From positions 1 through 41,163 of the forward strand of contig CAIYRQ010000239.1 in assembly GCA_903928635.1 (NCBI GenBank): a DNA stretch of 41,163 nucleotides. The letters run 5' to 3'. The position numbers were made by a program, and so were the translations under genes. Positions 1,949 to 28,640 of this stretch are shown in pieces. The first letter of the stretch is position 1, and each line of letters opens with the position of its first letter. The notes under the pieces are model-generated. The model ran no database searches and had not been told where the DNA came from. It saw only the letters and a list, made by a program, of their open reading frames with translations. Origin of the DNA: an uncultured beta proteobacterium (GTDB lineage: Bacteria; Pseudomonadota; Gammaproteobacteria; Burkholderiales; Burkholderiaceae_C).

Positions 1949-1964
1949 TCGTCGAAAGCGACGA
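1949..1964. promoter_or_regulatory. Palindromic operator site 1 (TCGTCGAAAGCGACGA), between divergent CoA-transferase and LAL regulator genes
   Basis: Perfect 6-bp arms. Minus-strand -10-like TATGCT begins exactly 22 nt away (1926-1921); plus-strand GAGAAT begins 23 nt away (1988-1993). Confidence 0.85.
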
Positions 1965-2017
1965 CCAGCATTCAGCCCTTCAGCCGCGAGAATTCAGCGT
2001 CAAGCCATATCGTCTAG

Positions 2018-4711
2018 ATGTCATATAAGAAAACGTCACCTGCAACGCCTCCACGGTCATCCGTTGTAGCTGCGGCAAAGCTGACTCCGCCCGCCATTCA
2101 GACCAGTCAGGTTTCTCGGACGGAACTATTGAATCTGGTCGGGCGAAACTCGGGGGCCAAGCTAATCATGGTGCACTCTGCAGCAGGTTTTGGCAAGACG
2201 ACGCTGATGGCGCAAATGCTGCACCGCTTTCGTAGCGAAGGCGTACGCACTGCTTGGCTCACACTGGATGCCTCCGACAACGATTCATCGCGATTTCTTT
2301 CAAGCCTGAGTGCAGCAGTGGAGTTGCCGTTATTGGATTCAAAGGCGGATTGGAAGCCCAATGACGTTGTCGAGCGTTTGGCCCGGGAGACTGCTCCTTT
2401 CACTTTGTTTTTTGACGATTTCGAAGCAATCGTAGATACGTCCGTGCTGACGGTTGTGCAATCTCTTATCGAGGGACTACAACAGGGCAGTCGAATCATC
2501 ATTGGCTCCCGAGGCTTGCCCGCGCTCCCCGTGTCCCGACTTCGAGCGCGCGGCCAGATGCTGGAAATTGATACGGAATCCTTGCGCTTTAGCTTGGATG
2601 AAGCCAATGACCTGTTTCGAAAACAACTTGGAAACAGTGCTCGAGAAAGTTTTATTCGCCGGGTACACCAGGACACTGAAGGCTGGGTGACAGCGCTGTG
2701 GCTGGCTTCTCGCTCTCTGCCAGGACCTCAAGAACAAGAAACGTACCTCACAGAAAATTTTTCTGGTTCATCGCGTGCGATTGCAGACTACCTTGCGGAC
2801 GATGTTTTTAGCCAGCAGCCTGCAGTCATCAAAGATTTTCTTTTGCGGTGCAGCATTCTTCGCCATCTGGAAATTCCGCTTTGCCAAGCATTGATGCCCA
2901 ATTCCGATTCGGCGTTTATTCTTGAGCAATTAGAGACCCAAAATCTGTTTTTGGTCGCTTTGCCGGGGCCAACGCCTGCCTGGCGCTTTCACCGACTTTT
3001 TGCCCGTTTTCTGCAAAACCGCTTGCTACGTGAGCGCCCTCAAGACATAGAGCGATTGCATCTTTTGGCATCTGCCTGGTATGAATCTGTGGGACGGCCG
3101 GTTCCAGCGGTCGATCATGCAATCGACGCCGGTGATTACCCGGTTGCTCTCGAGTTGCTGACAGTGCATGCGCAGCGGCTTCTGGAAGAGGGGCGGATGC
3201 GTTTGCTTGCTCAGTGGTTTGACGCCATCCCGAAGTCAGCGATAAAGGAACATCCCGTACTGCAAGCGGTTGCCGTGTGGGCTACGCTTTTTACCGGTGG
3301 TCCAGTCCAGGCATCCGAGCGACTGGAAAGTTCAAGTTGCCTGGAAAGCAAGAATGTCGAGGTGCAGGCACACGTCAACGCGCTCCGTCCACTGTTGTTG
3401 ACCATGCGCGACCAGTATGACGAGGCAATCGTACTTGGGAGTGAATGCCTTGCCAAACTTCCATCATGTAATCCGTATGCTGACGGCGTATTGAGAAATG
3501 CAATGGCGCATGCATTCACGGTCGTAGGAGAAATAGGGCGCGCAAAAAAGCTGGTTGATGAAGCCCGGCAACACACAGGCGACACCAACTTCAATCGCAT
3601 GTACGCGGAATCTATTGATGGCATGATCGATTTCCAGGCTGGCCGTTTGCGCATGGCAACCTCGCACTTTAGAGACAGCCTGAATGCGACCCGTGCACAA
3701 AGTAATAACTTTGCCAGCGGGAACGCATGGGCAGGAATTCTTTACGCAGGTGCACTCTACGAAGCAAATGAACTAGAAACGGCGGAGCGACTGGTGGATC
3801 TTCACCTTCCCACTGCTTGCGCGACTGGACTGCCCGGACATATTGGCGCTGGCTATCTCATAAGAGCACGTATTGCGTTTAGCAAGGGGGAGTTCGACAA
3901 AAGCTTTGAAGCACTCACCGAAATGGAATACATGGCACACCACAGACAGTTGCCGCGTATTGTTGCAAACGCCAAGATGGAGCGTTCCAGGTTGCTGCTT
4001 TTACAAGGCGACGCGCAGGCCTCAAAGGAGGAGCTGGACCGGGTCGGGTCGGAGGAATTGCAAGAACGCCTTTCGCGTCAGCGGCTCGCTGCGAATGAGG
4101 TGTATTACCCGGCTTTAGCCCGTGTTTGTTGGACGCTTCACTTTGGCGACTCGCACGCAGTCATCGCTTGGCTCGAGCAGGAGCTCGCAACCACGCTAGA
4201 ACAAAACCGACACCGCCGAGCATTGCGACTGCAAGCGCTTTACAGCCTCGCGCTTCAGCGCAGCGGTAATCCTAAAGAAGCGGCAAAGGTAATGTCCACT
4301 GCGCTCCGGCTCGCAGCCCAGGAAGGTTTTATTCGATCCATTGCGGACGAGGGCCCCGAGGTAGGGCGAATTATTCAGCGCCTTTATTCACTTCAACTCG
4401 AAATGCCTGCCAATCGGAGTGATCCAGCGCGCCTTCAGTTTATGGAGAAACTGCTGAAAGCGTTTGGGCAATTACCGCAGGAATCGTCTCAGCCCGACCA
4501 AAGAAGTAGCCTTGTTGAGGCGCTGACAAGAAAAGAAATCCAGATACTTCAGCTTGTCGCAGAAGGCTATTCAAATGCAAGACTGGCCGAACAATTGACG
4601 GCATCGGACAGCACCATTCGCACCCATCTTCGTAACATCAATTCAAAACTTGGCGCGGGCAGCCGCGCAGAAGCAGTGGTGATTGGAAGGCAATTTGGCG
4701 TCATCCGATGA
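2018..4711 (+). CDS. LAL-type (MalT/AlkS-like) transcriptional regulator: STAND/AAA ATPase plus TPR-like region plus C-terminal LuxR HTH
   Basis: Walker A HSAAGFGKTTLM, FFDDFEAI Walker B-like motif, C-terminal LTRKEIQILQLVAEGYSNARLAEQLTASDSTIRTHLRNINSKLGAGSRAEAV. Confidence 0.92.
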   Translation: MSYKKTSPATPPRSSVVAAAKLTPPAIQTSQVSRTELLNLVGRNSGAKLIMVHSAAGFGKTTLMAQMLHRFRSEGVRTAWLTLDASDNDSSRFLSSLSAAVELPLLDSKADWKPNDVVERLARETAPFTLFFDDFEAIVDTSVLTVVQSLIEGLQQGSRIIIGSRGLPALPVSRLRARGQMLEIDTESLRFSLDEANDLFRKQLGNSARESFIRRVHQDTEGWVTALWLASRSLPGPQEQETYLTENFSGSSRAIADYLADDVFSQQPAVIKDFLLRCSILRHLEIPLCQALMPNSDSAFILEQLETQNLFLVALPGPTPAWRFHRLFARFLQNRLLRERPQDIERLHLLASAWYESVGRPVPAVDHAIDAGDYPVALELLTVHAQRLLEEGRMRLLAQWFDAIPKSAIKEHPVLQAVAVWATLFTGGPVQASERLESSSCLESKNVEVQAHVNALRPLLLTMRDQYDEAIVLGSECLAKLPSCNPYADGVLRNAMAHAFTVVGEIGRAKKLVDEARQHTGDTNFNRMYAESIDGMIDFQAGRLRMATSHFRDSLNATRAQSNNFASGNAWAGILYAGALYEANELETAERLVDLHLPTACATGLPGHIGAGYLIRARIAFSKGEFDKSFEALTEMEYMAHHRQLPRIVANAKMERSRLLLLQGDAQASKEELDRVGSEELQERLSRQRLAANEVYYPALARVCWTLHFGDSHAVIAWLEQELATTLEQNRHRRALRLQALYSLALQRSGNPKEAAKVMSTALRLAAQEGFIRSIADEGPEVGRIIQRLYSLQLEMPANRSDPARLQFMEKLLKAFGQLPQESSQPDQRSSLVEALTRKEIQILQLVAEGYSNARLAEQLTASDSTIRTHLRNINSKLGAGSRAEAVVIGRQFGVIR

Positions 4712-4732
4712 CGTCGATAGATCGCCGCTGAC

Positions 4733-4748
4733 TCGTCGGAAGCGACGA
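4733..4748. promoter_or_regulatory. Palindromic operator site 2 (TCGTCGGAAGCGACGA)
   Basis: Perfect palindrome arms; 22 nt to TATAGT (4771-4776), which lies 7 nt before ATG 4784. Confidence 0.87.
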
Positions 4749-4783
4749 CCTGCTCTACGAGTGGAGTTCCTATAGTTGTTCTC

Positions 4784-6292
4784 ATGAACACATTGCTAGA
4801 TCGCTCGCCGGTAATCATCGGGGTTGGCGAAGTTACCCAGAAGACCAAAGATCTTCAAAAATCCTCGGAGCCCTTGGACCTCATGGAGTCCGCATTGCGC
4901 GCCGCTGAGAAGGACGCGGGCAATGCACTCCTGAAGATGATCGATTCACTGGATGTGATTCAGGAATTTTCTTGGCCCTACGCTGACGCGCCAGCGCAGT
5001 TGAGTGATCGCCTGGGCATCCATCCCAAACACTGCGTCTATGGCCCTGTTGGCGGTGAGACGCCTGTGTATTTCATCCATGAAGCTGCGCTTCGCATCTG
5101 GCAAGGCGAATCCGAGGTGGCTGCCATTGTTGGGGCTGAAGCACAGTACGCCGTGACTTCGGCCCAAAAACAGGGTGCTGCACTTGCATGGTCACCCCGC
5201 GACCCCTCAGCCAAGTTGATCAGGGGCACAGACTACCTCCATCGGATGGCTGTTGAATTGGGGGTTGCTTCGCCTGCGACTGTGTACCCGTTCTATGAAA
5301 ATGCCACCCTGGCCGCGTGGGGGCAGACCCCTGAACAAGCGCGTGCAGAGTCAGGCAAGCTATGGGAAAAGTGCTCGTCTGTCGCGGCATTAAACCCCTA
5401 TTCCTGGCAGCAGCAGTCCTACACCGCTGAAGAAATCGCCAGTCCGAGTGAGGCAAACCGAATTGTGGCTTGGCCTTACACCGTGCAGATGGTTGCCAAT
5501 CCGCAGGTCAATCAAGGAGCCGCGGTTCTTCTGACGAGTCGTGGCAAGGCGAGGCAATTAGGTATTCCAGATGAGCGCATGGTCCATGTTTGGTGTGGTG
5601 CTGCCGCAAATGAGCCAGCCGACTATCTGCATAGAGATCAATATGTGCGAGTTCATTCGCAAGAAGCTGTTCTCGAAAAAATATTGCAACAAGTTGGCGA
5701 TCTGGGCAGATTTGATCAGCTTGAGCTGTACAGCTGTTTTCCTATTGTTCCCAAGATGGCGAGAAGAACACTGGCGCTGGGCGCGGACACTGTTGTGACC
5801 TGCACAGGGGGTCTCAGCTTCTTTGGTGCACCGCTAAACAACTACATGACGCACGCAACATCAGCCATGGTGCGGGCTTTGAGGGGGCAGCAAAACTCAA
5901 TAGGTCTGTTGTACGGTCAGGGAGGATATCTGACAAAGCACCATGCCATCGTTCTGGGAAGCCATGCAAGCGCCACCTCCCGTTTGTCAGCGGATTACAG
6001 CGTCCAAGAGACAGCCGACTCAAGACGACACGGGGTTCCTGCGCTGCAAATGAACTACAGCGGACCGGCGTCCATAGAGTCATTCACCGTGATCTATCGA
6101 AAAGATACCAGCATGTCCCACGGCGTGGTGATCCTGCGTTCGCCGCACGGGACCCGTCTATTGGCAAAAGTAAGCTCGACGGATCAGCGAAGCATGCAAG
6201 TCTTGACCAGCATGCGTAATTCACCAATCGGTATATCCGGCCACGTTTCTATCGGTACCGATGCAATACCTTTGTGGGAGATTTCGCAATGA
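4784..6292 (+). CDS. Thiolase-like protein with C-terminal extension (TLP1-type; annotated in many genomes as acetyl-CoA acetyltransferase)
   Basis: RSPVIIGVGEVTQ N-terminus, GGLSFFGAPLNNYMTHA, ~100-aa C-terminal OB-like extension; the usual NxxCxSG nucleophile region reads GPVGGETP. Confidence 0.85.
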   Translation: MNTLLDRSPVIIGVGEVTQKTKDLQKSSEPLDLMESALRAAEKDAGNALLKMIDSLDVIQEFSWPYADAPAQLSDRLGIHPKHCVYGPVGGETPVYFIHEAALRIWQGESEVAAIVGAEAQYAVTSAQKQGAALAWSPRDPSAKLIRGTDYLHRMAVELGVASPATVYPFYENATLAAWGQTPEQARAESGKLWEKCSSVAALNPYSWQQQSYTAEEIASPSEANRIVAWPYTVQMVANPQVNQGAAVLLTSRGKARQLGIPDERMVHVWCGAAANEPADYLHRDQYVRVHSQEAVLEKILQQVGDLGRFDQLELYSCFPIVPKMARRTLALGADTVVTCTGGLSFFGAPLNNYMTHATSAMVRALRGQQNSIGLLYGQGGYLTKHHAIVLGSHASATSRLSADYSVQETADSRRHGVPALQMNYSGPASIESFTVIYRKDTSMSHGVVILRSPHGTRLLAKVSSTDQRSMQVLTSMRNSPIGISGHVSIGTDAIPLWEISQ

Positions 6293-7092
6293 ACAATACC
6301 GCTTCGCACGCGCCCGCAGGTGAAGCAACGGTTAGCTGTTTCAAGCGGGACGACCATATTGCAGTGGTTTCACTGAACCGGCCTGCCGCAAGAAATGCGG
6401 TCAACAGCGATATGGCACAGGCACTGCATGCCATTGTGGAGCAGACGGAGGAAGACCCTGACATTTGGGTCGTCGTGATTTTCGGTGGCCTTGGTGACGT
6501 ATTTTGTGCGGGCGCTGACCTCAAAGAAGTTGCGGCAGGTCGTGGCGCCAGCCTTTTCACCTCACACGGATTTGCAGGCTTGGTCTATTCGCAAAGGAGG
6601 AAACCCTGGATCGCTGCGGTCAATGGCAAAGCATTGGCAGGTGGTTTTGAAATCGTGCTTTCATGTGATCTGGTGGTCGCTGCTACCGACGCGAGCTTTG
6701 GATTGCCCGAAGTATCTCGTGGCTTGCTCGCCGCTGCGGGTGGGCTGTATCGCTTGCCTCGCGCCATTCCGAGAAATATCGCTGTTGAATTGGTCATTAC
6801 CGCTGACGCGATCGATGCGCATCGGGCTGCCTCGCTGGGTTTTGTGAACAGGGTTGTCGAAAGAGACCAAGTTCTGCCAGAAGCCATTCGGCTTGCAGAA
6901 CGTATCACCCGCAACGCACCCGTCGCGGTACGAGAAAGTTTAAAGGTCGCCCGTCGCATTCACGATCTTGATGAAGAGAATCTACGCCTGTTGACCCAGG
7001 AATGCAGGGAAAATGCCTTCGCATCGGAAGACTTTAAAGAAGGTCCACGAGCGTTTGTAGAAAAACGCGCCCCACGTTGGACTGGCAGATAA
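6289..7092 (+). CDS. Enoyl-CoA hydratase/isomerase (crotonase) family protein
   Basis: VSLNRPAARNAVNSDM, GDVFCAGADLKEV, ALAGGFEIVLSCDLVVAATDASFGLPEVSRG; ATGA overlap with upstream stop; the 6274 start of the ORF track is a GTG. Confidence 0.9.
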   Translation: MNNTASHAPAGEATVSCFKRDDHIAVVSLNRPAARNAVNSDMAQALHAIVEQTEEDPDIWVVVIFGGLGDVFCAGADLKEVAAGRGASLFTSHGFAGLVYSQRRKPWIAAVNGKALAGGFEIVLSCDLVVAATDASFGLPEVSRGLLAAAGGLYRLPRAIPRNIAVELVITADAIDAHRAASLGFVNRVVERDQVLPEAIRLAERITRNAPVAVRESLKVARRIHDLDEENLRLLTQECRENAFASEDFKEGPRAFVEKRAPRWTGR

Positions 7093-7130: not shown

Positions 7131-7146
7131 TCGTCGAATCCGACGA
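7131..7146. promoter_or_regulatory. Palindromic operator site 3 (TCGTCGAATCCGACGA)
   Basis: Perfect palindrome arms; 22 nt to TACATT (7169-7174), which lies 6 nt before ATG 7181. Confidence 0.86.
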
Positions 7147-7180
7147 TCCAAATTCTGGGTTGGAGACATACATTGAATGC

Positions 7181-8386
7181 ATGAACAATGTATATATCTA
7201 CGATCACGTGCGCACCCCGCGCGGCAAGGGCCGGTTTGATGGCGCACTGCACACCGTGCCGCCTGTCCATCTCGCCGCCACTGTTTTGCGTGCTCTCAAA
7301 GAGCGCAATCAAATAGACCCTGACGATATCGAAGACGTTGGACTGGGCGTCGTGATGCCCATTGGCGAACAAGGCGCGGACATCACCCGGTCTGCGCTCT
7401 TGATGGCGCACTATGGTGAAGATGTTTCTGGTTACCAGCTCAACCGGTTCTGCACTTCCGGTCTTGACACCGTGAAGATGGGATTTGGTCTGATTGGTTC
7501 CGGGCAGGCCGACGCCGTCATTGGGGGTGGTGTCGAATCCATGTCACGCGTTGCGATTGGATCGGACGGCGGATCAGCCTACACCGACACCACCATTGGC
7601 AGGCAGTACCCCTATATCCCCAATGGTGTGTGCGCGGATCTCATGGCGGCATTGGACGGGTTTAGCCGTGACGATATCGACGCCTATGCCGTTGAAAGTC
7701 AGCGTCGCGCTGGAATCGCCCAAGAAGACGGCCGATTTAATGCTTCGTTAGTTCCTGTGAAAAATGCGTTTGGCGAAACCCTTTTGCAGCGAGACGAATT
7801 AGTGCGTCCTGGCACGACGCTCGCGGATCTGGCCAAACTGAAACCGAGCTTTGTCGCAGCGGGGGATTCGGGCTTTGACTCCATTGTTCTTCGCCGCTAT
7901 CCGCAGCTTGAGTCGATTCCCCACATTCACACGGGGGGAACCTCCAGCGGAATCGTGGACGGAGCATGCGCCGTCTTGCTGGGCAGCGACGCATACGGAA
8001 AAAAGCAGGGACTGCGCGCTCGCGCTCGGATTGTTGCGGCAGCAACCTGTGCTTCTGAACCGCTGATCAGCCTTGGCGGCCCCATACCAGTGACAGACAA
8101 AGTGCTGGCGAGGGCCGGACTGAAGATTGAGGACATTGACCTTTTCGAGGTAAATGAAGCTTTCGCAGTTGTACCCATGCGCTACATGCGACATTTCGGA
8201 ATTGATCGTGATCGTATGAATCCCAATGGTGGAGCGATCGCGCTTGGCCATCCTCTTGGGGCTACAGGCGCCATCCTCCTTGGCACGGCGCTGGACGAAC
8301 TTGAACGTCGAGGGAAGTCTCGGGCACTGATTACGCTGTGCGCCGCCGAAGGTCAATCTACCGCAGTGATCATCGAACGCGTCTAA
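7181..8386 (+). CDS. Acetyl-CoA acyltransferase (canonical thiolase)
   Basis: [65 protein letters not shown]; start re-set from 7094 to ATG 7181 ([17 protein letters not shown]). Confidence 0.92.
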
Positions 8387-8397
8387 AGGCCTGATAC

Positions 8398-10569
8398 ATG
8401 AGCAATAACATTCATATGGAAGTCGGTGCTGACGGCATCGCATTGGTGACTCTCGACGTGGCCGCAAGAAGCGTCAATGTTTTCACACCAGAATTCACGG
8501 CAGAACTGAGTGAGGTCATAGAGTCTTTGCGCGATCGCGAGGACATCGTCGGCGCCATCATCACCTCAGGCAAAAAATCGGGCTTTATGGCCGGGGCAGA
8601 CCTGATGGACTTTGTCCACTTGCATGACAAAAATCTCACTCCGACTCAGGCTGCACAAGTTGTTGCGCCGGCTGCTGCCGCACTTCGCCGACTTGAGTTG
8701 TGCGGTAAACCTGTGGCAGCCGCCATCAACGGATTCGCCCTGGGTGGAGGCTTTGAACTTTGCCTCGCTTGCCACTATCGCGTATTGGTCGATAGCGCCA
8801 AAGCCGTCGTTGGTTTGCCCGAAGTAACCGTTGGCCTGCTGCCAGCAGGCGGAGGAACCCAGCGACTACCACGTCTCATCGGGATAAAAAACGCTTTGCC
8901 ACTGCTTCTCACGGGTCGCCACGTGAGTCCGGGCGAAGCGCTCAAACTGGGATTGGTCAACGCACTCGCTTCTGCGGACAACCTCATAAGCCTCGCGCGT
9001 CAATGGGTACTAGAGCACCCCGGCCACAAGCAAGCTTGGGACATCAAGGGCTTTGCTGTACCTGGTGGCGCCGGTGCGATGGCACCGCATTCAAACGAGA
9101 GCTTCAGCGTCGGCATGGCGAAAATCCGGCGCGATACGCAGGACAACGAACCGGCCCCTCTGGCCATCCTCTCGTGTGTCTACGAAGGCACACAACTGCC
9201 GATCGACGCTGGCCTGAAGATTGAATCGGGATACTTTGGTCAACTATTGGCAGGCCCTGTTGCACGCAATCTGATGCGAACCATGTTCATTCATCAAGGC
9301 GCTGCGCGCAAACTCAGCAAACGGCCGGCTGGCATTGAAAAAACTACGGTTCAGAAATTGGGGGTTTTGGGTGCAGGAATGATGGGCGCAGGGATCGCCC
9401 AAGTTGCAGCCGCTGCGGGTATTTACGTGGTGTTGTTGGATGCCACCCAGGCCTCTGCAGATGCGGGGAAAACGCGTGCTGCTAACGGCTATGCCCGTGA
9501 CGTCAAGGCAGGTCGGGGCTCGCAGCACGAAGCAGATGAAAAACTCGCTCGCATCCATGCCACCTCTGAATTTGAGGCATTGAACGGATGTGACTTCATT
9601 GTCGAAGCAGTGTTCGAAGACCGGGCCGTCAAAGGGGAGGTCTACAAAAAGGCGGCTCTTGCGTTGGGACAGCTGCCCGAAGGCTTTGTGATGGCGACCA
9701 ACACCTCCACTTTGCCCGTCACAGGCCTCGCGGAACTGTGGATAGATCCACAGGAATTCATCGGCTTGCACTTCTTTTCACCGGTTGAGCGGATGTCACT
9801 GGTCGAGATTATTCAGGGACGTCAGACATCCGCACATGCCCTGGCAAGAGCCCTCGATTTTGTAGCGCAATTGGGCAAGGTTCCGATCGTCGTGAACGAC
9901 AGTCCAGGGTTCTACACGAGCCGAATATTTTGCGCCTATATTGATGAGGGAATGGCGATGCTGGCTGAGGGAGTGTCCCCAGCACTGATCGAAAATGCCG
10001 CGCGTCAGGCGGGATTCGCCACGCCACCGCTTGCGGTCACGGACGAAGTGTCACTGGATTTGCAGGAGCGAGTCATCGGTCAAGCCATTGCGGACGGTTT
10101 GGAGCCAAAATTCCTTCGGCAGCATGCCCAAGCGGTGGTCGCTGCAATGGTCTCAAAGGGACGTCTGGGAAGGAAAAGTGCAGGCGGGTTTCATGATTTT
10201 CCAGCCGGACAACCGAAGCGACTATGGCAAGGCTTGTCGGAATTATTTCCGCCGGCAGGAACCCAACCCGATGTACAGACCGTAAAGAACCGCCTTTTGT
10301 ATATCCAGGCGCTTGAATCAGCCCGCTGTGTTGAAGAGAGCGTGGTACCCGAGGCTTCCGACGCGGATCTTGGTTCCATATTGGCCTTGGGTTTTCCTAA
10401 ATGGACGGGAGGAACACTTTCGTTCATCGAAACCATTGGAGCCGCTGCGTTTATTACGGAATGTGACCGTCTCGCGGGGCTTTATGGAGAGCGCTTCCGC
10501 CCGTCATCTTGGCTACGTCAACGAGCCACATCACGTCAGGCCTTTTATCCGTCGCCCGCACATGTTTGA
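8398..10569 (+). CDS. Bifunctional enoyl-CoA hydratase / 3-hydroxyacyl-CoA dehydrogenase (FadB/FadJ-like)
   Basis: N-terminal crotonase (GFMAGADLMDF, ALGGGFELCLACHYR) fused to HAD (KLGVLGAGMMGAGIAQVAAAAG, GLHFFSPVERMSLVEIIQG). Confidence 0.94.
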   Translation: MSNNIHMEVGADGIALVTLDVAARSVNVFTPEFTAELSEVIESLRDREDIVGAIITSGKKSGFMAGADLMDFVHLHDKNLTPTQAAQVVAPAAAALRRLELCGKPVAAAINGFALGGGFELCLACHYRVLVDSAKAVVGLPEVTVGLLPAGGGTQRLPRLIGIKNALPLLLTGRHVSPGEALKLGLVNALASADNLISLARQWVLEHPGHKQAWDIKGFAVPGGAGAMAPHSNESFSVGMAKIRRDTQDNEPAPLAILSCVYEGTQLPIDAGLKIESGYFGQLLAGPVARNLMRTMFIHQGAARKLSKRPAGIEKTTVQKLGVLGAGMMGAGIAQVAAAAGIYVVLLDATQASADAGKTRAANGYARDVKAGRGSQHEADEKLARIHATSEFEALNGCDFIVEAVFEDRAVKGEVYKKAALALGQLPEGFVMATNTSTLPVTGLAELWIDPQEFIGLHFFSPVERMSLVEIIQGRQTSAHALARALDFVAQLGKVPIVVNDSPGFYTSRIFCAYIDEGMAMLAEGVSPALIENAARQAGFATPPLAVTDEVSLDLQERVIGQAIADGLEPKFLRQHAQAVVAAMVSKGRLGRKSAGGFHDFPAGQPKRLWQGLSELFPPAGTQPDVQTVKNRLLYIQALESARCVEESVVPEASDADLGSILALGFPKWTGGTLSFIETIGAAAFITECDRLAGLYGERFRPSSWLRQRATSRQAFYPSPAHV

Positions 10570-10618
10570 ACGCACCAGAGACTGAATTCCCGACAATTTC
10601 ACGGATGGAGACCTTTTG

Positions 10619-19292: not shown

Positions 19293-19312
19293 GCTTTAGT
19301 ACCCACCAAACT

Positions 19313-19351
19313 GTCCACCAACCCGGTTGAACCAGGTTGGTGGACTTTTTT
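19313..19351 (+). terminator. Rho-independent terminator
   Basis: GTCCACCAACC - 11-nt loop - GGTTGGTGGAC followed by TTTTTT; 11-bp perfect stem 21 nt after the stop codon. Confidence 0.93.
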
Positions 19352-19381
19352 ATGTGCGCCTATCTTTCAAAGGAAACATTC

Positions 19382-19804
19382 ATGTCAGAACTTCATGGCG
19401 GCTGCCTTTGTGGCAACGTACGTTACCGGGTGATGAGCCCTCCGAAGTCAATTTCGGTGTGCCATTGTCGGAATTGCCGTAAACAATCCGGTTCCCATCG
19501 CTCCCTGAATTGGTTGATACCGGAAGATGCCCTGATCATCGAAGGTGATCTGACGACGTTCAGGGATAGCGGCGATTCTGGAAAAACGGTGCTGCGGCAA
19601 TTTTGCGGGAAGTGCGGATCACCCATCAGGACCTTAGCGGAGCTGCTTCCAGGCCTTGCCGTTCTTAAAGCCGGGACGCTTGACCTCACCCCGGAACAAG
19701 CACCCAACTATGCTTTGTATTCCGTCAACGCAGCACCATGGGAATTGAACGTGCTCGATTGTCCAAAATTTGAGGGAATGCCAGTGGCGCCTAAGTCCAC
19801 CTAA
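19382..19804 (+). CDS. GFA/CENP-V family (glutathione-dependent formaldehyde-activating enzyme-like) Zn-binding protein
   Basis: GGCLCGNVRYRV, CHCRNCRKQSGS, FCGKCGSPI; start set at ATG 19382. Confidence 0.9.
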   Translation: MSELHGGCLCGNVRYRVMSPPKSISVCHCRNCRKQSGSHRSLNWLIPEDALIIEGDLTTFRDSGDSGKTVLRQFCGKCGSPIRTLAELLPGLAVLKAGTLDLTPEQAPNYALYSVNAAPWELNVLDCPKFEGMPVAPKST

Positions 19805-19813: not shown

Positions 19814-20815
19814 TTACCGAGCTTGCACTGCAGTGCCGGCTCGTAACCGGTTGATGAGTCCCATCACACCCTTGGGCATTGCAAAAACCAGCAAAATAAG
19901 TACCACGCCATAAACAGCCCAGGCGGCGTCCTTGGACACTTTCTCAGCGATTTCCGGTACAAACATAATGAACGTTGCGCCGAAAAATGCACCCCATAGC
20001 GTGCCGATTCCACCCACAACAACGCCCACCAGAAGCGATATTGACAAAAACATCGTAAAGGAATCGGGCGACACAAATTGCACCGCAAGCGCCGAGAGTG
20101 AACCACCTACGCCCGCAAAAAACGCGGAAACCGCAAAGGTCATCGATTTGTAGTGCTGGTGATTGATGCCCATGGAGGTTGCCGCCATCTGATGATCGCG
20201 AATCGCGCGGATCGCGCGTCCCGTTCCGCTGTCAATGAGATTGCGTGCGATCAGGAACATGGCACAGGTAACAAGCAGAGCAAAAAGATAAAAGTATTGG
20301 TCCGGCGTCAGTGGCAAACCCCACGGCGCATCCGGTTTGGTCAGTACGATCCCGCCTACGCCTCCTGTCCAGGGCTGGAGGTGCTTGTACTTCAGCAATT
20401 GCGGTAACACCACGCTCAGCGTGAAGGTTGCAAGAGCCAGGTACAGACCTTGGAGCTTCAGTGCCGGGCGTCCAAAGGCGTACCCTGCAAGCATCGAAAC
20501 GGCGCCTGCAATCGGAATTGCCAGCCAATAAGGAACATCCCAGTTCATCAATATCGCCAAAGCGTAGGCGCCGATTGCAAAAAAGGCTCCATGCCCAAGA
20601 GAAATCTGGCCGTTATAGCCTGTCAATAGATTGAGCCCTACCAGTGCGACCGCATACGACAAGACCATGGTGGCTTGAAATAGGACATAGCCCTTCGCAA
20701 AGAAAGCCAACGATGATGCAATTACAAACAGCATCAGGATGCTGCGCAGCGACATAGAAGTGAAGGCAGTTGCAGACGGTTTCGTGTCCTTGGACAGGGG
20801 GGGCGATACTTGCAT
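19814..20815 (-). CDS. Branched-chain amino acid-type ABC transporter permease (LivM-like)
   Basis: LVGLNLLTGYNGQISLGHGAFFAIGAYA, AIRDHQMAATSMGI; start set at ATG 20815. Confidence 0.92.
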   Translation of the reverse strand: MQVSPPLSKDTKPSATAFTSMSLRSILMLFVIASSLAFFAKGYVLFQATMVLSYAVALVGLNLLTGYNGQISLGHGAFFAIGAYALAILMNWDVPYWLAIPIAGAVSMLAGYAFGRPALKLQGLYLALATFTLSVVLPQLLKYKHLQPWTGGVGGIVLTKPDAPWGLPLTPDQYFYLFALLVTCAMFLIARNLIDSGTGRAIRAIRDHQMAATSMGINHQHYKSMTFAVSAFFAGVGGSLSALAVQFVSPDSFTMFLSISLLVGVVVGGIGTLWGAFFGATFIMFVPEIAEKVSKDAAWAVYGVVLILLVFAMPKGVMGLINRLRAGTAVQAR

Positions 20816-20825
20816 ACAAATCTCC

Positions 20826-21698
20826 TTAGACGCGTTGGACGGTGCGGCGGCCCAACAGTCCCGCAGGACGGACAACAAGCACCCCCACTATCAGCACCAA
20901 TGCCACGGTCAGCTTCAAGTCGGTGCCTACGACGTAGGTACCCAACAGATTCTCCAGAACACCCACCAAGAATCCACCGACAATGGCACCCAATGGGCTG
21001 TCAATGCCGCCTATGAGTGCCCCGGCAAAGGCATAAATCAATACACCCGTCATCATCCCAGGGTCTAGAAAAACCACGGGTGCAACCATCATTCCGGCCA
21101 CAGCGCCAATAGCCCCGGCAAGGCCCCACCCAAGCATAAGCATCCGGCCAACACGAATACCCAATAGACGCGATGATCCAGGGTTTTGCGCCGCAGCACG
21201 CATCGTCAGGCCTAAGGTCGTGTGCTGGAAAAAGGCAAAGAGCGCTGCAACGATACAAAGTGCAACGAATATCGTTCCCACCTGATGGGGAGACATCAAA
21301 CTTCCTCCAAACCAGGCATCCTTAGAAAAAGGACTCGGAAACTCACGAATCTCCGATCCGAATACCCAGCCCGCAACACTGTGAAATATCACCAGCAAGC
21401 CAATGAAAACAGCAACAACACTGAGCTCAGGGGCTTTATGCAGAGGGCGAATAACCGCAAACTCCAAGGCCGCGCTGGCGATGAATGAAATGACGATCGT
21501 TGCAAAAAATGCAGCCCAGTAACCCAGTCCGGCCTGCATCAACGTCCAGGCCAAAAAGGTGGAGAACATCGCCATTTCGCCCTGCGCGAAATTCACATGG
21601 TGTGTTGCCTGATAAATCATGACCAGCGCTAGCGCAAGACAGGCGTAAATGCCGCCACTGGCCAGACCGACGGTTACCTGTTGAATTAAGGTTTCCAT
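20826..21698 (-). CDS. Branched-chain amino acid-type ABC transporter permease (LivH-like)
   Basis: GLASGGIYACLALALVMIYQATHHVNFAQGEMAMFSTF, ALIGGIDSPLGAIVGGFLVGVLENL. Confidence 0.93.
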   Translation of the reverse strand: METLIQQVTVGLASGGIYACLALALVMIYQATHHVNFAQGEMAMFSTFLAWTLMQAGLGYWAAFFATIVISFIASAALEFAVIRPLHKAPELSVVAVFIGLLVIFHSVAGWVFGSEIREFPSPFSKDAWFGGSLMSPHQVGTIFVALCIVAALFAFFQHTTLGLTMRAAAQNPGSSRLLGIRVGRMLMLGWGLAGAIGAVAGMMVAPVVFLDPGMMTGVLIYAFAGALIGGIDSPLGAIVGGFLVGVLENLLGTYVVGTDLKLTVALVLIVGVLVVRPAGLLGRRTVQRV

Positions 21699-21701
21699 TG
21701 T

Positions 21702-22418
21702 TTACTCTCCAAGGTATGCACGTCGCACAGCATCATCATTGCGCATCTCTTCACTGGGGCCATGCTTGACAATGCGCCCGGTCTCCAACAAGTAAGCGGT
21801 ATCGGCAAGTTGCAGCGCGATCCGAGCGTTTTGTTCTACCAACAGGATGGACACCTTTTGCTCCGTACGAATGCGCTTCATGATGGCAAATATGTCTTTG
21901 ACTACCAGCGGCGCAAGTCCAAACGAAGGCTCATCAAGAAAAAGCAAAGAAGGCCTTCCCATGAGTGCCCGAGCGATGGCAAGCATTTGTTGCTCACCGC
22001 CAGACAATGTTCCGGCCTGTTGCGCGTGTCGCTCCTTGAGGCGCGGGAAATAGTCATACATCCGATCAAGGTCGGAGGTAACTGCAGCCTTATCCTTACG
22101 TGCATGACACCCCAAACGCAGGTTCTCTTCCACCGTCATCGCCTGGAATGTTCCACGTCCATCAGGGACATGGCCAATTCCCATGGCCGCGATCTCTTCA
22201 GTGGACTTTCCATCGATGCGATCACCGCGGAAGGTAATTGAGCCCCCTGTCTTCACTTGGAAATGACAAAGCGCACGCAAGGTGGTGGTTTTACCGGCAC
22301 CATTGGCTCCGAGCAAGGTAACAACCTTGCCTTCGTCCACATCAAGGTCGATGCCGTGAAGCACCTCGGTCGCTCCGTACGATGCATGGAGGCCACGGAC
22401 TTCGAGCAAACGGGTCAT
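21702..22418 (-). CDS. ABC transporter ATP-binding protein (LivF-like)
   Basis: LLGANGAGKTTTLRAL, LSGGEQQMLAIARALMGRPSLLFLDEPSFGLAP. Confidence 0.94.
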   Translation of the reverse strand: MTRLLEVRGLHASYGATEVLHGIDLDVDEGKVVTLLGANGAGKTTTLRALCHFQVKTGGSITFRGDRIDGKSTEEIAAMGIGHVPDGRGTFQAMTVEENLRLGCHARKDKAAVTSDLDRMYDYFPRLKERHAQQAGTLSGGEQQMLAIARALMGRPSLLFLDEPSFGLAPLVVKDIFAIMKRIRTEQKVSILLVEQNARIALQLADTAYLLETGRIVKHGPSEEMRNDDAVRRAYLGE

Positions 22419-23215
22419 GCTTCAACTCCTTCGTCTTCGCCGAGGTAAGCACGAATCACTTCTGGGTCGTTACGAACCTCTGCAGGTGTTCCATCGGCAA
22501 TTTTCTTACCGAAGTTAAGTGCAACGATCCGATCACAAACGCCCATTACCAGGCCCATGTGATGTTCGACAAGAAGCACCGACAAATTCAGACGCCTGCG
22601 GATATCCAGAATCAGCTCGCTCAAGCCACTCAGTTCCTCATGGTTGAGCCCACATGCGGGCTCATCTAAGAGCAACAGTGTCGGTTCACATGCCAGCGCA
22701 CGGGCCAGTTCCACCCGTTTTTGGGTACCGAACGGAAGATCTGCGACCACCTTGTCTGCAAACCTTTCAAGTTTCATGACCTCCATGGCCTGATCTGCGC
22801 GTTGAACCGCAGCCCGTTCGGCACGCCTTGAACCAGGAAGGCGCAATGCGTCACTGAAAAATCCCACATGGTGATGCGCATGGGACCCAATCAGGACGTT
22901 CTCACGCACAGTCATCGTGCCGAAAAGCGCCAAGTTCTGGAATGTCCTGCCGACGCCCATTCCAGCGATACGATGTTGCGGCTGGTTTGACAGCACTTTT
23001 CCATCAAACTGAATGGAGCCGCTATCGCAGGAATAGAGACGCGATAGGCAATTGAACAATGTGCTTTTCCCAGCGCCATTGGGGCCGATCAACCCACGGA
23101 TCTCACCGCGGCGAACGTCAAAGCTGACGTTGTCGAGTGCGACAATTCCGCCAAAACGTACCGACACCTTGTCGACGACTAGCAGCTGGCTGTCTCCAGA
23201 GTTTCTATTTTCCAC
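22415..23215 (-). CDS. ABC transporter ATP-binding protein (LivG-like)
   Basis: GLIGPNGAGKSTLFNCLSR, GVGRTFQNLALFGTMTVRENVLIG, LLLDEPACGLNHEE; ATGA overlap with LivF-like gene. Confidence 0.94.
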   Translation of the reverse strand: MENRNSGDSQLLVVDKVSVRFGGIVALDNVSFDVRRGEIRGLIGPNGAGKSTLFNCLSRLYSCDSGSIQFDGKVLSNQPQHRIAGMGVGRTFQNLALFGTMTVRENVLIGSHAHHHVGFFSDALRLPGSRRAERAAVQRADQAMEVMKLERFADKVVADLPFGTQKRVELARALACEPTLLLLDEPACGLNHEELSGLSELILDIRRRLNLSVLLVEHHMGLVMGVCDRIVALNFGKKIADGTPAEVRNDPEVIRAYLGEDEGVEA

Positions 23216-23319: not shown

Positions 23320-23335
23320 TCGTCGAAAGCGACGA
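23320..23335. promoter_or_regulatory. Palindromic operator site 6 (TCGTCGAAAGCGACGA), bidirectional
   Basis: Perfect palindrome arms; identical TAGACT hexamer exactly 22 nt away on both sides (23358-23363 plus strand; 23297-23292 minus strand). Confidence 0.9.
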
Positions 23336-23388: not shown

Positions 23389-24189
23389 ATGCGGGAAATC
23401 GTTTCCCATCTTCTAGATGAATGCCGCAGCCTCGCAGCCCTTTGTGAGGAACTGACACCAGAGCTGTGGTGCAGGGCAACTGACTTTTACCGTTGGACAC
23501 CGTGGGACGAAATTGCCCACCTCGCATACTTTGATGAAACTGCGTTGCAGGCCGTCCAAGACCCGGCCACATTTTTATCACGCAGAGAAATTTTGCGCGG
23601 ACAGCGGGCTCGTGGAGAGGAGATCAGCAGCATTGCGCGAGAGCGCTTTTTGCAAAAAGACGGCAAGGAAGTTCTCGATTTCTGGCGCCTTCAGTTTGAA
23701 TTTCTTTGCTCCGCGCTGATCGAAATGGACCCCAAAGCCCGCCTGCCGTGGTACGGCCCTGAGATGAGCGCGCGCTCATTTGCCACTGCTCGTTTAATGG
23801 AAACATGGGCCCATGGTCAGGATATACGAGACATGCTCGGTCGGAACCATTGGACTAGCTCCGGGTTACGTCAGATCGTGCACCTGGGTGTCAACACCTA
23901 TCACTGGACATTCAAAAACCGGGGACTGTTACCACCGGAACCCGTTCCGTATGTCGACCTTGAAGCTCCTGATGGCACCCGCTGGACATGGGGCGCACAC
24001 TCATCCACCGACTACGTGATGGGTTCGGCTTATGACTTTGCTCTTTTGGTGACGCAACGCAGGCACCGGAGTGATACAACGCTTCAATGGCGCGGAGAGG
24101 GAGCAGAGCGTTGGACCCTGATCGCGCAATGCTTTGCAGGCGCACCTTCAACTGGACCCGCAGCCGGTGGGCGCAGACGCAGTAACTGA
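23389..24189 (+). CDS. TIGR03084/MDMPI-like (mycothiol-dependent maleylpyruvate isomerase fold, DinB-related) protein
   Basis: MREIVSHLLDECRSLAALCEELTPELW...WTPWDEIAHLAYFDETALQAVQDPATF, METWAHGQDIRDML. Confidence 0.75.
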   Translation: MREIVSHLLDECRSLAALCEELTPELWCRATDFYRWTPWDEIAHLAYFDETALQAVQDPATFLSRREILRGQRARGEEISSIARERFLQKDGKEVLDFWRLQFEFLCSALIEMDPKARLPWYGPEMSARSFATARLMETWAHGQDIRDMLGRNHWTSSGLRQIVHLGVNTYHWTFKNRGLLPPEPVPYVDLEAPDGTRWTWGAHSSTDYVMGSAYDFALLVTQRRHRSDTTLQWRGEGAERWTLIAQCFAGAPSTGPAAGGRRRSN

Positions 24190-24196
24190 CCACAGA

Positions 24197-25075
24197 ATGC
24201 AAAAGGCTGACCTTGGGGTAGAACTCCGCTTGGACTTGGCGCCAAGAATAAGCTCGCTGCTCAAGGTGCGAATGGCCAGGGCTGGGGAAACGGCCCTCGC
24301 AGAACTTACATTCGCAAATTTGTGGCTATTCCGGCGACCGCATTGCTGGAATTTTTATGACGGCGATTGGCCTTGCATCAGTGGAATCGGCTATGACGGA
24401 CTAAAGCATGCTGTTCCTCTTTTTGATCTTCGCAACGCGCCGGTCGCAATCCTTGATGATCTTCTGCATCGCTTCGGTTGCCTTTTCCCACTGTCAGACG
24501 CGGAAGTGCAGGGGCTTGATACACCTCGACACCAGCTCACTTCCCAGGTGCACGACTCAGACTATCTCTACCCAGCAGACCAGTTCCGCGAATACCGAGG
24601 AGCGATGCTTCATAAAAAAAAGAATCTCATGTCACAGCTGCTCGCTTCCTACGAGATGACTGTCGCCGCCTATACGCCCTCACTTCAAAGGGAGGCCGAA
24701 CAGATCCTCCGAGATTGGTTGCAAGACAAGCAACTTGAAGCAGGTGACGCAGATGAACAGCCCTGTCGCGAAGCGCTCGCCCTAAGCAATCAGCTGGGCC
24801 TAGAAGGATTCATGTATTTCGCGAATGGCCGCCCCGCCGGATTTCTACTTTCCGAAGAGCTTCAGCCTGGCGTGTGGGTTATCCGATTTGCCAAGGGATT
24901 GGTCCGCTACAAAGGAATCTCGCAATTCATGTTTCACCACTTTGCATTGCGCACCGACCGCCAGATGCAATGGCTGAACTTTGAACAGGACTTGGGCATG
25001 CCGAATTTCCGCAGAACCAAGTTGAGCTATCAACCTTCCGCTCTTATAGCCAAGTGGCGGCTGCAATTTTCTTAG
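24197..25075 (+). CDS. DUF2156-like (GNAT-related, PG lysyltransferase C-domain-like) protein
   Basis: LTFANLWLFRRPHCWNFYDGDWPCISG, LYPADQFREYRGAMLHKKKNLMSQLLASYE, GLEGFMYFANGRPAGFLLSEEL; ATG 24197 avoids overlap with the upstream gene. Confidence 0.7.
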   Translation: MQKADLGVELRLDLAPRISSLLKVRMARAGETALAELTFANLWLFRRPHCWNFYDGDWPCISGIGYDGLKHAVPLFDLRNAPVAILDDLLHRFGCLFPLSDAEVQGLDTPRHQLTSQVHDSDYLYPADQFREYRGAMLHKKKNLMSQLLASYEMTVAAYTPSLQREAEQILRDWLQDKQLEAGDADEQPCREALALSNQLGLEGFMYFANGRPAGFLLSEELQPGVWVIRFAKGLVRYKGISQFMFHHFALRTDRQMQWLNFEQDLGMPNFRRTKLSYQPSALIAKWRLQFS

Positions 25076-25091: not shown

Positions 25092-26177
25092 TCAAATCAG
25101 GGATTGCAGTTGAGCGGCATGTCTTCGCACTTGCTGTGGACTTCCAAAGAGCTGTCTATCAGTTCCGATTCGCTTGAACCAAAAATGGAGTCCCAGTTCA
25201 TCGGTGATGCCCATTCCGCCATGAATCTCGGTTGCGGTGCGGGCAACAAAATTCCCTGCGTCTCCCAGAATCGATTTGGCATGTGCTGCGCACAGCGCTG
25301 ACTCGTCAGGCAAATTGTTAAATGCATACGCTGCGTACCAAACCAGGCCTCGCGTAATCTCCATTTCTGCAGCCATTTCAGAACACATGTGCTTGACCGC
25401 CTGGAATGACCCAATTTGCCGACCGAATTGGCGACGCTCATGCGCGTAGGCCACGGACTTATCGATCATTGCCCATCCTGCGCCAAGAACGTCTGCCGCC
25501 AACATCACCCAGGCTGCGTCGCGTAGGCGGTTTAAAACGCCTTCGTTCCCATTAGGTAGTAACTCAGCTTTTGCTCCAGCAAGGTGAAGCTTGACGAAGG
25601 GGCGGGTCGAATCCAATGCCGGTAAGGCTTCACGCTCGACGCCTTCGCCGTCTGCATCCACCCAAAACAAAGAGCGATCACGGGTCGCTACCAAGTAGTG
25701 GTTTGCCAGCGCACCATCGAGCACAAAAAGCGCGCTGCCATACAGCTTGCCATCACGGACTTCAAGACCGGCACCATCAAAAGCGCCACCTATCGCCTCG
25801 GCCAACGCGACCCCGACCACACTTTCCCCATTCGCAATGGCCGGAAACCAACGGGCCTGCTGCTCTGGGGTGCCCGCATAAAGCAGTGCCAGGGGCGCGA
25901 TGACGCAGGACCCCAAAAATGGCACTGGCGCTACGACGCGACCCAACTCTTCAGACGCAAGTGCCATGTCCAGAAGCGAGAGTCCGAGCCCACCATGCTC
26001 CTCAGGTACCAGTATGGCGGGGATGCCCAACTCACAGACGGTCCGCCAGGCAGTTGCATCCCAGGCAAATCTTTTGGAGGCGACCTGTCTAACTGCGTCA
26101 AGGGTTGAAGCACGCGCCAATGCGCTACGCAGACTGTCCTGCATGAGAGTCTGGTCAGGAGAAAGTGCAAATTCCAT
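25092..26177 (-). CDS. Acyl-CoA dehydrogenase family protein (small-subunit type)
   Basis: ALSPDQTLMQDSLRSALAR, ILVPEEHGGLGLSLLDMALASEELGRVVAPVPFL, YAHERRQFGRQIGSFQAVKHMCSEM, EIHGGMGITDELGLHFWFKR. Confidence 0.92.
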   Translation of the reverse strand: MEFALSPDQTLMQDSLRSALARASTLDAVRQVASKRFAWDATAWRTVCELGIPAILVPEEHGGLGLSLLDMALASEELGRVVAPVPFLGSCVIAPLALLYAGTPEQQARWFPAIANGESVVGVALAEAIGGAFDGAGLEVRDGKLYGSALFVLDGALANHYLVATRDRSLFWVDADGEGVEREALPALDSTRPFVKLHLAGAKAELLPNGNEGVLNRLRDAAWVMLAADVLGAGWAMIDKSVAYAHERRQFGRQIGSFQAVKHMCSEMAAEMEITRGLVWYAAYAFNNLPDESALCAAHAKSILGDAGNFVARTATEIHGGMGITDELGLHFWFKRIGTDRQLFGSPQQVRRHAAQLQSLI

Positions 26178-26233
26178 GGGTATTCAGTCTTGAGGTAAAT
26201 CGAACCGCTTTTTTGTCCGTCAAATTCCAGGAA

Positions 26234-27424
26234 CTATGCAGCTGCCCGAGGTTCACGTGGGAGGTTGAGACCACGCTCGGCGATGATGTTTTTTTGAATC
26301 TGGGCCGTTCCGCCGCCTATCACCAAGCCCAGGTCGAAACCTTTTCTTTCCTGCCAAATTCCGTCAGCGCGCGTATGCTCACTTCCTTGTAACAGTAAGC
26401 CGACTTCGCCTAGTGCATCAACCGCCAGACTCGACAGCTGAAACCGAATTTCGCAACCCTGAAGCTTTGTAATCAGTCCTGCCAGCAGGGGATCCTGCCC
26501 TTTATCGGCAAGGGTGAGCAGTCGCATTCCATGACACCGCTGGGCCAATACGCGGCCCTGCAGCTCCATCAGTCGATCCATCAGAATCGGATCTGCAATG
26601 GCGGGCACTCCCGACAGGCCCTTCCCCTGCATCAGCTTCGCCACTTCGGCATAACGCTGAATCAACATGCCTGGATTAGCCAAGTAGGCGCGCTCGTGTT
26701 TGAGCGTTGCATTGGCCACCTTCCATCCGTCACCCCGCTTGCCGACGATTTGATGCTTCGGTACGCGCACGTCCGTGAAAAACACCTCGTTGAACTCTGC
26801 ACGGCCGGTCATAGTCTTCAATGGCCGCACAGAAATTCCAGGTGTTTTCATGGAAAACAGGAGATAACTCAGGCCTTGATGCTTTAGCAAATCGGGCTCG
26901 GTCCGCACCAGGCAAAAAATCATGTCGGCGGCGTGGGCAGTGGAAGTCCAGATCTTTTGGCCATTGATTAAAAAGTCTTCCCCGTCGTCCACCCCCCGCG
27001 TCTGGATTGCTGCCAGGTCAGAGCCGGCACCGGGCTCAGAATAGCCTTGACACCACACCAGCTCGCCCCTCAGCGTGTGGGCAATGTATTCCCGTTTCTG
27101 CTGTTCTGTTCCGAGCTCCAACAGCGTCGGGACGAGCATGGAGATACCCTGATTTCCGATACCCAGTGCGACTCCTGCTCGGGTGAATTCCTCAACAATA
27201 AGATGCTGCTCCATCACGTCAGGTTCTGCGCCATATCCCCCATAGTGTTGTGGAACGGTTCGACCGGCATACCCGTGTTCCAACAGCAATTTTTGCCAGG
27301 CAAGCAATGCGGTATTGGGTCGATCGCCAGGAATGGTTGGCGCCGATTGATGGCCATGGAGCTTCAAAAATTCACGGATCTGAGCCCGCAAAGCTTCGTG
27401 CTTGGCACTGAGTTTTAAGTCCAT
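26234..27424 (-). CDS. Acyl-CoA dehydrogenase (large-subunit type)
   Basis: CQGYSEPGAGSDLAAIQTRGVDDGEDFLINGQKIWTSTAHAADM, VIGGGTAQIQKNIIAERGL; ATG 27424 preferred. Confidence 0.93.
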   Translation of the reverse strand: MDLKLSAKHEALRAQIREFLKLHGHQSAPTIPGDRPNTALLAWQKLLLEHGYAGRTVPQHYGGYGAEPDVMEQHLIVEEFTRAGVALGIGNQGISMLVPTLLELGTEQQKREYIAHTLRGELVWCQGYSEPGAGSDLAAIQTRGVDDGEDFLINGQKIWTSTAHAADMIFCLVRTEPDLLKHQGLSYLLFSMKTPGISVRPLKTMTGRAEFNEVFFTDVRVPKHQIVGKRGDGWKVANATLKHERAYLANPGMLIQRYAEVAKLMQGKGLSGVPAIADPILMDRLMELQGRVLAQRCHGMRLLTLADKGQDPLLAGLITKLQGCEIRFQLSSLAVDALGEVGLLLQGSEHTRADGIWQERKGFDLGLVIGGGTAQIQKNIIAERGLNLPREPRAAA

Positions 27425-27441
27425 CTTTATTTCTCCATTTT

Positions 27442-28590
27442 TCAAAGGGAGCGCCAGATAACTTCTTTCATGATTTCGCTGGTGCCACCATAAATTCGCT
27501 GAATTCGAGCGTCGATGAACATGCGTGCAATCAGGTATTCGTTCATGTAGCCGTATCCGCCAAACAGCTGAACGCAGGTGTCAACGACCCGACCTTGCGC
27601 CTCTGAGCCCCACAGCTTTGCCATCGACGCGGTGGCGGTATCCAGCTTTCCTTCCACGAGTGCCAATACGCATTGGTCAATGAAGGCCCTTCCAACCTTT
27701 ATTTCTGTTGCAATTTCAGCAAGCTTGAACTTGGTGTTCTGAAAGTCCGAAACGGCTTTGCCGAAGGCTTTTCTGTCTCTCACGTAGTCAAGTGTTGCCT
27801 CGTAGGCGCCCTCCATCGCCGCAAGCGCGGTCACACCAATGATCAGCCGTTCATAAGGTAAATCTGCCATCAGCTGGTAAAAGCCCTGGCCCTCACGTCC
27901 ACCCAGAAGATGCGCTTCGGTCAACTCGACATCATCAAAAAATAGTTCCGATGTGTCCTGGGCCTTGAGTCCAACTTTGTCCAACAGTCGCCCTACGCGG
28001 TAGCCGGGGCAATCCTCTGTTTCGACAATGAAGATGGACATTCCTTTCGCACCTTGCGTGGGGTCTGTTTTTGCAACCACCAACACAAGCCCCGCCAAAT
28101 ACCCGTTGGAAATGAACGTTTTTGATCCCTGAATCTTCCAGCCCGAAGGGGTACGTTCCGCTTTCGTCTTGATACCCTGAAGGTCTGAGCCAGTACCGGG
28201 TTCTGTCATCGCAATTGCTCCGACCAGCTCTCCGGCGATCATCTTTGGCAGGTAACGTTGCTTCTGCTCCTGCGTCCCATGATTGAGGATGTAGTGCGCC
28301 ACGATCGTATGCACGGACGCATTCATCCCGGTCAGACTTCTGCGGGCCATTTCTTCGTAAAACACAGCCTCGTGACGGAAGTCACCGCCGACGCCACCCC
28401 ATTGCTCTGGCACATCGGAGCACAGCAACCCAAACTCACCGGCCTTACGCCATATTTCGTGCCCGACGTGGCCGCGCATGCGCGCCGCTTCATCATCCGG
28501 GACCATGTGCTCCTCGATGAATCTCACAACGGTATCCCGGTACAGGTCCAGATCTGAATCGCTCCATGAGCGTGTGGTATTGAGTGTCAT
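27442..28590 (-). CDS. Acyl-CoA dehydrogenase (long-chain type)
   Basis: AIAMTEPGTGSDLQGIKTKAER, YVRDRKAFGKAVSDFQNTKFKLAE, QLFGGYGYMNEYLIARMFIDARIQRIYGGTSEIMKEVI. Confidence 0.95.
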   Translation of the reverse strand: MTLNTTRSWSDSDLDLYRDTVVRFIEEHMVPDDEAARMRGHVGHEIWRKAGEFGLLCSDVPEQWGGVGGDFRHEAVFYEEMARRSLTGMNASVHTIVAHYILNHGTQEQKQRYLPKMIAGELVGAIAMTEPGTGSDLQGIKTKAERTPSGWKIQGSKTFISNGYLAGLVLVVAKTDPTQGAKGMSIFIVETEDCPGYRVGRLLDKVGLKAQDTSELFFDDVELTEAHLLGGREGQGFYQLMADLPYERLIIGVTALAAMEGAYEATLDYVRDRKAFGKAVSDFQNTKFKLAEIATEIKVGRAFIDQCVLALVEGKLDTATASMAKLWGSEAQGRVVDTCVQLFGGYGYMNEYLIARMFIDARIQRIYGGTSEIMKEVIWRSL

Positions 28591-28624
28591 GGCCGCATTG
28601 TTGGGCAGTCATGAAAAATGTTTC

Positions 28625-28640
28625 TCGTCGGATTCGACGA
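28625..28640. promoter_or_regulatory. Palindromic operator site 7 (TCGTCGGATTCGACGA), bidirectional
   Basis: Perfect palindrome arms; 22 nt to AACAAT on minus strand (28602-28597), which lies 6 nt before ATG 28590; 22 nt to GAACAT on plus strand (28663-28668). Confidence 0.85.

Follow-up and report, generated by a model that had tools for sequence, protein, structure and literature searches.

A palindrome conserved around LAL/MalT-type regulators is probably their activator box in a beta-oxidation gene cluster

The window analyzed here is a 41,163-bp stretch of DNA from an uncultured beta proteobacterium of the Burkholderiaceae_C (contig CAIYRQ010000239.1). Its gene content, assigned by Pfam, NCBIfam and PDB sequence searches, comprises a cluster of acyl-CoA-processing enzymes, a Liv-type transporter and a large regulator of the LAL (LuxR/MalT) type (Table 1). 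Distributed through this cluster are seven copies of the perfect 16-bp palindrome TCGTCGNNNNCGACGA (TCGTCG-N4-CGACGA; hereafter, the box), which together head ten predicted transcription units. A previous interpretation of the letters alone (the sequence-only reading) had proposed these copies as the operator of an undescribed regulon controlled by the regulator. We examined this proposal in the complete genome and in relatives, and find that the box is more probably a site of activation.

Table 1. Features of the cluster, in window coordinates
Feature	Position	Strand	Remarks
Family III CoA-transferase (PF02515)	647..1846	-	
-10-like TATGCT	1921..1926	-	22 bp off box 1, facing CoA-transferase gene
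Box 1 TCGTCGAAAGCGACGA	1949..1964	divergent	CoA-transferase (-) / regulator (+)
Weak -10-like GAGAAT	1988..1993	+	23 bp off box 1, facing regulator gene
LAL regulator (MalT-like STAND ATPase + TPR + LuxR/GerE HTH)	2018..4711	+	Proposed box-binding activator
Box 2 TCGTCGGAAGCGACGA	4733..4748		Predicted promoter of thiolase-like protein + enoyl-CoA hydratase genes
-10-like TATAGT	4771..4776	+	22 bp off box 2; ATG 4784 7 nt beyond, predicted leaderless
SCP2-thiolase-like protein (TLP1) + enoyl-CoA hydratase (crotonase)	4784..7092	+	
Box 3 TCGTCGAATCCGACGA	7131..7146		
-10-like TACATT	7169..7174	+	22 bp off box 3; ATG 7181 6 nt beyond, predicted leaderless
Putative operon: thiolase, FadJ-like, acyl-CoA ligase, SDR, acyl-CoA dehydrogenase, APH-fold kinase	7181..15240	+	
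Box 4 TCGTCGAAAGCGACGA	15276..15291		In-register hexamer GAAAAT 15314-15319
Zn alcohol dehydrogenase + aldehyde dehydrogenase	15373..17941	+	
Box 5 TCGTCGCTTCCGACGA	17976..17991		-10-like TAGGAT 18014-18019
LivK-type solute-binding protein + GFA-family protein	18087..19804	+	
Liv-type ABC transporter permeases + ATPases (LivM, H, F, G)	19814..23215	-	
Box 6 TCGTCGAAAGCGACGA	23320..23335	divergent	TAGACT both sides: 23292-23297 (-), 23358-23363 (+)
MDMPI/DinB-fold protein + LPG_synthase_C protein	23389..25075	+	
Three acyl-CoA dehydrogenases	25092..28590	-	27442-28590 one LCAD-like
In-register hexamer AACAAT	28597-28602	-	Box 7; ATG 28590, predicted leaderless
Box 7 TCGTCGGATTCGACGA	28625..28640	divergent	AACAAT (-, 28597-28602) and GAACAT (+, 28663-28668)
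Alpha-methylacyl-CoA racemase homologue	28765..29835	+	Start uncertain (28684-28765)

Both 6-bp arms are identical in all seven copies, and the centers, once orientation is normalized, are restricted to AAAG (three copies), GAAG (two) and GATT (two). The pattern did not occur once in 100 dinucleotide-preserving shuffles of the window. Across the complete 2.83 Mb genome it was found seven times, every time inside the cluster, while the reversed control (the palindrome read backwards) was not found at all; the abundance outside the cluster that the sequence-only reading held would speak against a regulon is thus not seen. Three copies (7131, 17976 and 28625) are overlapped by mechanically called open reading frames (ORFs) when alternative starts farther upstream are used. 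Because plausible start codons lie 3' of these copies (7181, 18087 and 28765), all seven can be regarded as intergenic, as had been claimed, and boxes 1, 6 and 7 do occupy divergent intergenic regions. Allowing one mismatch to the looser form TCGTC-N6-GACGA yielded 199 matches in the same genome versus 178 for the control, so weak sites are not callable. The single match in a same-genus genome, G126, that shares a center (G126:C1) was set aside as chance: it lies inside an acyl-CoA ligase gene, in a genome without the regulator.

Orthologues of the regulator (39-51% identity) are found in some 20 genera of its family, and homologues of the cluster enzymes surround them there. To rank inverted repeats near these orthologues, all 1,024 possible 5-bp arms were scored as arm-N6-reverse complement. 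In the window plus 20 orthologous regulator loci, TCGTC-N6-GACGA ranked first with 44 occurrences, compared to 28 for the next best arm, GCGCG. It was first again (104 versus 56) at the loci of 44 named genomes with regulators in the same identity range and, by a narrow margin (22 versus 20), at 16 named loci whose regulators are 33-38% identical; around regulators less than 33% identical it did not rise above background. Named carriers include Variovorax, Hydrogenophaga, Ramlibacter, Noviherbaspirillum and Cupriavidus, and further Marinobacter, Pseudomonas migulae, Zhongshania, Steroidobacter and Bradyrhizobium. The sites in relatives lie almost without exception (131 of 133) outside recognized homologous coding sequence, although such sequence covers 44% of bases. 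The site is therefore conserved near orthologous loci, the other point on which the regulon proposal had been made to depend. The rigidity of the arms holds within the genome of origin and gives way elsewhere to the looser TCGTC-N6-GACGA, with uncompensated arm changes such as CCGTCGCTTCCGACGA.

An indication of function that was missed in the sequence-only reading is the position of the box relative to a -10-like hexamer. Among 160 sites, TANNNT lies exactly 22 bp beyond the palindrome in 51 cases and 23 bp beyond it in 28, against 0-4 at other distances. A non-redundant set of 119 sites (238 sides) gave 42 and 17, respectively, with a mean of 0.6 elsewhere; the relaxed form NANNNT was present 87 times at 22 bp and 46 times at 23 bp in these 119 sites. 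In the window, NANNNT stands at 22 or 23 bp on all ten gene-facing sides and on none of the four other sides (nominal p ~2e-11), and on six of the ten it takes the TANNNT form (TATGCT, TATAGT, TACATT, TAGGAT and TAGACT twice). Relative to start sites inferred from these hexamers, the box spans about -50 to -35 with its center near -42.5, which is the position of a class II activator. No TTGACA-N16-18-TANNNT pair was found in the window, nor any TTGACA-like consensus beside the box; an activator site centered near -41.5 or -42.5, its fixed distance to the -10 and a poor -35 hexamer are characteristic of class II activator-dependent sigma-70 promoters. At three genes (4784, 7181 and 28590) the ATG sits 6-7 nt past the hexamer, where transcription would be expected to begin, which independently supports the -10 assignment. 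As read from this spacing, their mRNAs are probably leaderless.

The 2018-4711 product has the architecture of a LAL protein: an N-terminal STAND ATPase with a Walker A motif (AGFGKT, with nearly every position invariant among 21 orthologues), a MalT-like TPR region (PF17874, E 9.5e-34) and a C-terminal GerE helix-turn-helix (HTH; PF00196, E 2.4e-15) at residues ~835-888, with the recognition helix STIRTHLRNI. A phmmer search matched it to MalT (8bob, E 7e-41). Raw box counts are uninformative in high-G+C relatives, where the reversed control often equals TCGTCGNNNNCGACGA in frequency; requiring an in-register -10 alongside the box removes this background. We therefore asked for the composite of box, 22-23 bp and TANNNT in genomes of the family, counting as regulator-positive those with a close orthologue (E below 1e-150). 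The composite was present in 18 of 22 regulator-positive genomes versus 5 of 179 regulator-negative ones (Fisher p=1e-17), and since its reversed control gave single matches in 7 genomes, the latter five are at background.

The association extends to the DNA-contacting helix. In a tree of 79 regulators, all 43 box-bearing members fell within one 51-member clade (Shimodaira-Hasegawa-like approximate likelihood ratio support, SH-aLRT, 99), and none of the 22 regulator loci tested outside it had the box. The recognition-helix signature T[VI]RTHLR was carried by 43 of 43 box-bearing regulators and was lacking in 22 of 29 box-less ones. At the loci of near relatives outside the clade, with helices such as TVKTHLR, TVKSHLR or TVRSHLR, there was no box, and a search for the operator used where the helix differs gave no clear result. 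This pattern is what would be expected from a helix-base code and, with the genome-wide exclusivity, the co-occurrence and the conservation near orthologues, it strongly supports the proposed link between box and regulator.

Taken together, the results make it probable (roughly 85%) that the palindrome is the activator box of the LAL/MalT-type regulator, which would exert class II activation across the cluster. Switched on by ATP together with a small inducer, possibly one of the pathway's acyl-CoAs, the regulator would place a pair of GerE/NarL-type HTH domains on the two arms of the 6-N4-6 inverted repeat. The box, at about -50 to -35, would then stand in for a -35 element, and the bound regulator would bring sigma-70 RNA polymerase to the -10-like hexamer 22-23 bp downstream. 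The seven copies would in this way drive ten predicted units encoding the transporter, the CoA ligase and beta-oxidation enzymes including the alpha-methylacyl-CoA racemase. The symmetry of the box allows a single copy to serve a promoter on each side, as the three divergent copies most likely do. Several points weigh against this interpretation. Four of the ten window hexamers are weak (GAGAAT, GAAAAT, GAACAT and AACAAT), and seven helix-bearing members of the clade, plus L143 (a locus outside the tree), have no perfect box in the stretch examined. Sequence relatedness inflates the association p-values, which are hence nominal, and the power of the test is limited to the family, since a class-level genome sample beyond the family contained too few members of the clade to increase it. 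Finally, the regulator-facing side is without an in-register -10 in most relatives, making positive autoregulation doubtful.

The alternative that survives best, although we judge it improbable, is a repressor operator at which the regulator, or an unlinked TetR/GntR-type protein, would block RNA polymerase until an inducer arrives. Palindromes near promoters are typical of repressors, and the Streptomyces LAL protein SCO6993 represses its targets (PMC9628970). Repressor sites, however, usually vary more in position than the fixed distance observed here, and it is this distance, centering the box near -42.5, that makes an activator site most likely. The window also has no TTGACA -35, and the site tracks the LAL protein and its recognition helix; the scan of the window genes identified no second transcription factor. 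What stands of the earlier proposal is thus a regulon site, by its genome-wide exclusivity and conservation, with "operator" giving way to "activator box". An activator site for some other, unlinked regulator is less probable again: co-occurrence and linkage fall short of proving binding, yet the box follows both the regulator orthologues and one recognition helix, at the frequencies given above. It is very improbable that the palindrome works as an RNA hairpin, terminating or attenuating leader transcripts. The arms could pair into a 6-bp stem closed by a 4-nt loop, but no T run follows the palindrome, arm changes in relatives are uncompensated, and the -10 lies downstream of the box, which would consequently not be transcribed from its own promoter. 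The sequence-only reading had likewise favored a protein site.

An origin of the copies as relics of some dispersed repeat or a mobile element can be practically dismissed: the cluster itself may have moved, but the copies have only the 16-mer in common (their 30+30 bp flanks are unrelated, with a mean best identity of 32%), none occurs elsewhere in the genome, and the promoter register is kept across genera. Movement of the cluster is suggested by its G+C content (0.546 for 600-30000, versus 0.640 for the right flank, 33000-41163) and by the congener G126, in which the regulator is absent and the gyrB and RND-pump homologues are on separate contigs; the cluster may therefore be a horizontally acquired island. 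On the Cupriavidus necator N-1 plasmid pBB1 (L219) we observed the regulator with three boxes (2351, 12879 and 17441) and TAAACT/TAGACT in register. Because pBB1 is typed as a conjugative plasmid, the regulon may move between strains.

Gene content suggests a pathway for the breakdown of fats or isoprenoids. Across 60 relatives' loci, the most conserved neighbor is the long-chain acyl-CoA dehydrogenase (LCAD)-like protein, with at least 50% identity in 34 and up to 84%, followed by the alpha-methylacyl-CoA racemase in 27; the window racemase homologue matches the M. tuberculosis enzyme at E ~4e-129. The closest solved relatives of the dehydrogenase at 25092-26177 are Tcur3481 and a chain in 4x28, which we take to be steroid side-chain enzymes. 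As judged from these three proteins, oxidation of methyl-branched acyl-CoA is likely the core of the pathway, with uptake and entry steps that vary. None of seven cluster enzymes received a name in an NCBIfam search at 1e-90.

Other features were noted in passing. An MDMPI/DinB-fold protein adjoins an LPG_synthase_C (MprF-type) protein inside the beta-oxidation cluster (23389-25075), and at 13004-15240 an acyl-CoA dehydrogenase is followed by an APH-fold kinase, the domain pair of ACAD10/11, which handle 4-hydroxy acids. Further box-headed genes of relatives seem, by eye, to encode DUF1302-type outer-membrane, old yellow enzyme (OYE), nitronate monooxygenase-like and nitroreductase-like proteins (L098, 17692-17764; L116/L120/L121/L141, ~14400-14550; left ends of L090/L095/L103). 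L081 contains a CCCCGC palindrome ten times at a spacing of exactly 61 bp (11614-12180), which looks like a CRISPR array.

The mechanism proposed here is of a known, ordinary kind, and it is the regulon that is apparently new. A non-exhaustive search of the open-access literature, covering the sequence, LAL regulators in side-chain catabolism, and naphthenic or isoprenoid catabolism, returned no description of the site, in keeping with the earlier "undescribed". With about even confidence we propose an undescribed alpha/beta/gamma-proteobacterial regulon, in which the T[VI]RTHLR clade of LAL proteins activates catabolism of alpha-methyl-branched acyl-CoAs (from isoprenoid, steroid side-chain or similar acids) through a TCGTC-N6-GACGA site that is fixed at -42.5 and often shared by two divergent, sometimes leaderless, transcripts. 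Box, spacing, -10 and recognition helix form a sharp predictive code legible from sequence, by which the regulon can be predicted in Variovorax, Hydrogenophaga, Cupriavidus, Marinobacter, Bradyrhizobium and others. It offers a route to the inducer and substrate of a lipid-type catabolic pathway, and to a biosensor promoter.

Among known systems, E. coli MalT shares with the regulator the STAND ATPase, the MalT-like TPR region and the C-terminal GerE HTH that define the LAL family. The regulator differs in scoring 341.6 bits against the NCBIfam MalT equivalog, whose cut-off is 537, and in its site, a single 16-bp palindrome where the MalT box is asymmetric. The 10-bp form of the MalT box, GGGGAKGAGG, shows no enrichment in the window, with 1 match at one mismatch versus 4.6 expected. 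ComA of Bacillus subtilis is a response regulator and not a STAND protein. Its canonical site lies upstream of the one for RNA polymerase and consists of inverted TTGCGG hexamers separated by 4 nt (PMC4797271). This 6-N4-6 geometry, used by a GerE/NarL-type HTH dimer, is identical to that of the box, whereas the hexamer is TCGTCG here. SCO6993 of Streptomyces coelicolor is a LAL repressor whose footprints, those in its own promoter among them, fall on short palindromes; from these the authors of that study were unable to derive a consensus (PMC9628970), in contrast to the sharp consensus found here. TeiR/TesR, a LuxR-type regulator of a cluster for steroid catabolism in Comamonas (Burkholderiales), is described as a membrane protein working via kinase activity (PMC6678751); the likeness, by description only, is that of a LuxR-type regulator placed over a catabolic cluster in this order. 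AlkS of Pseudomonas putida GPo1 activates, with positive feedback, an operon for alkane catabolism (PMC3664771). The scan of the cluster genes identified no alkane hydroxylase, and the resemblance to AlkS, again by description, is that of a LuxR/MalT-type activator of hydrocarbon or lipid catabolism.

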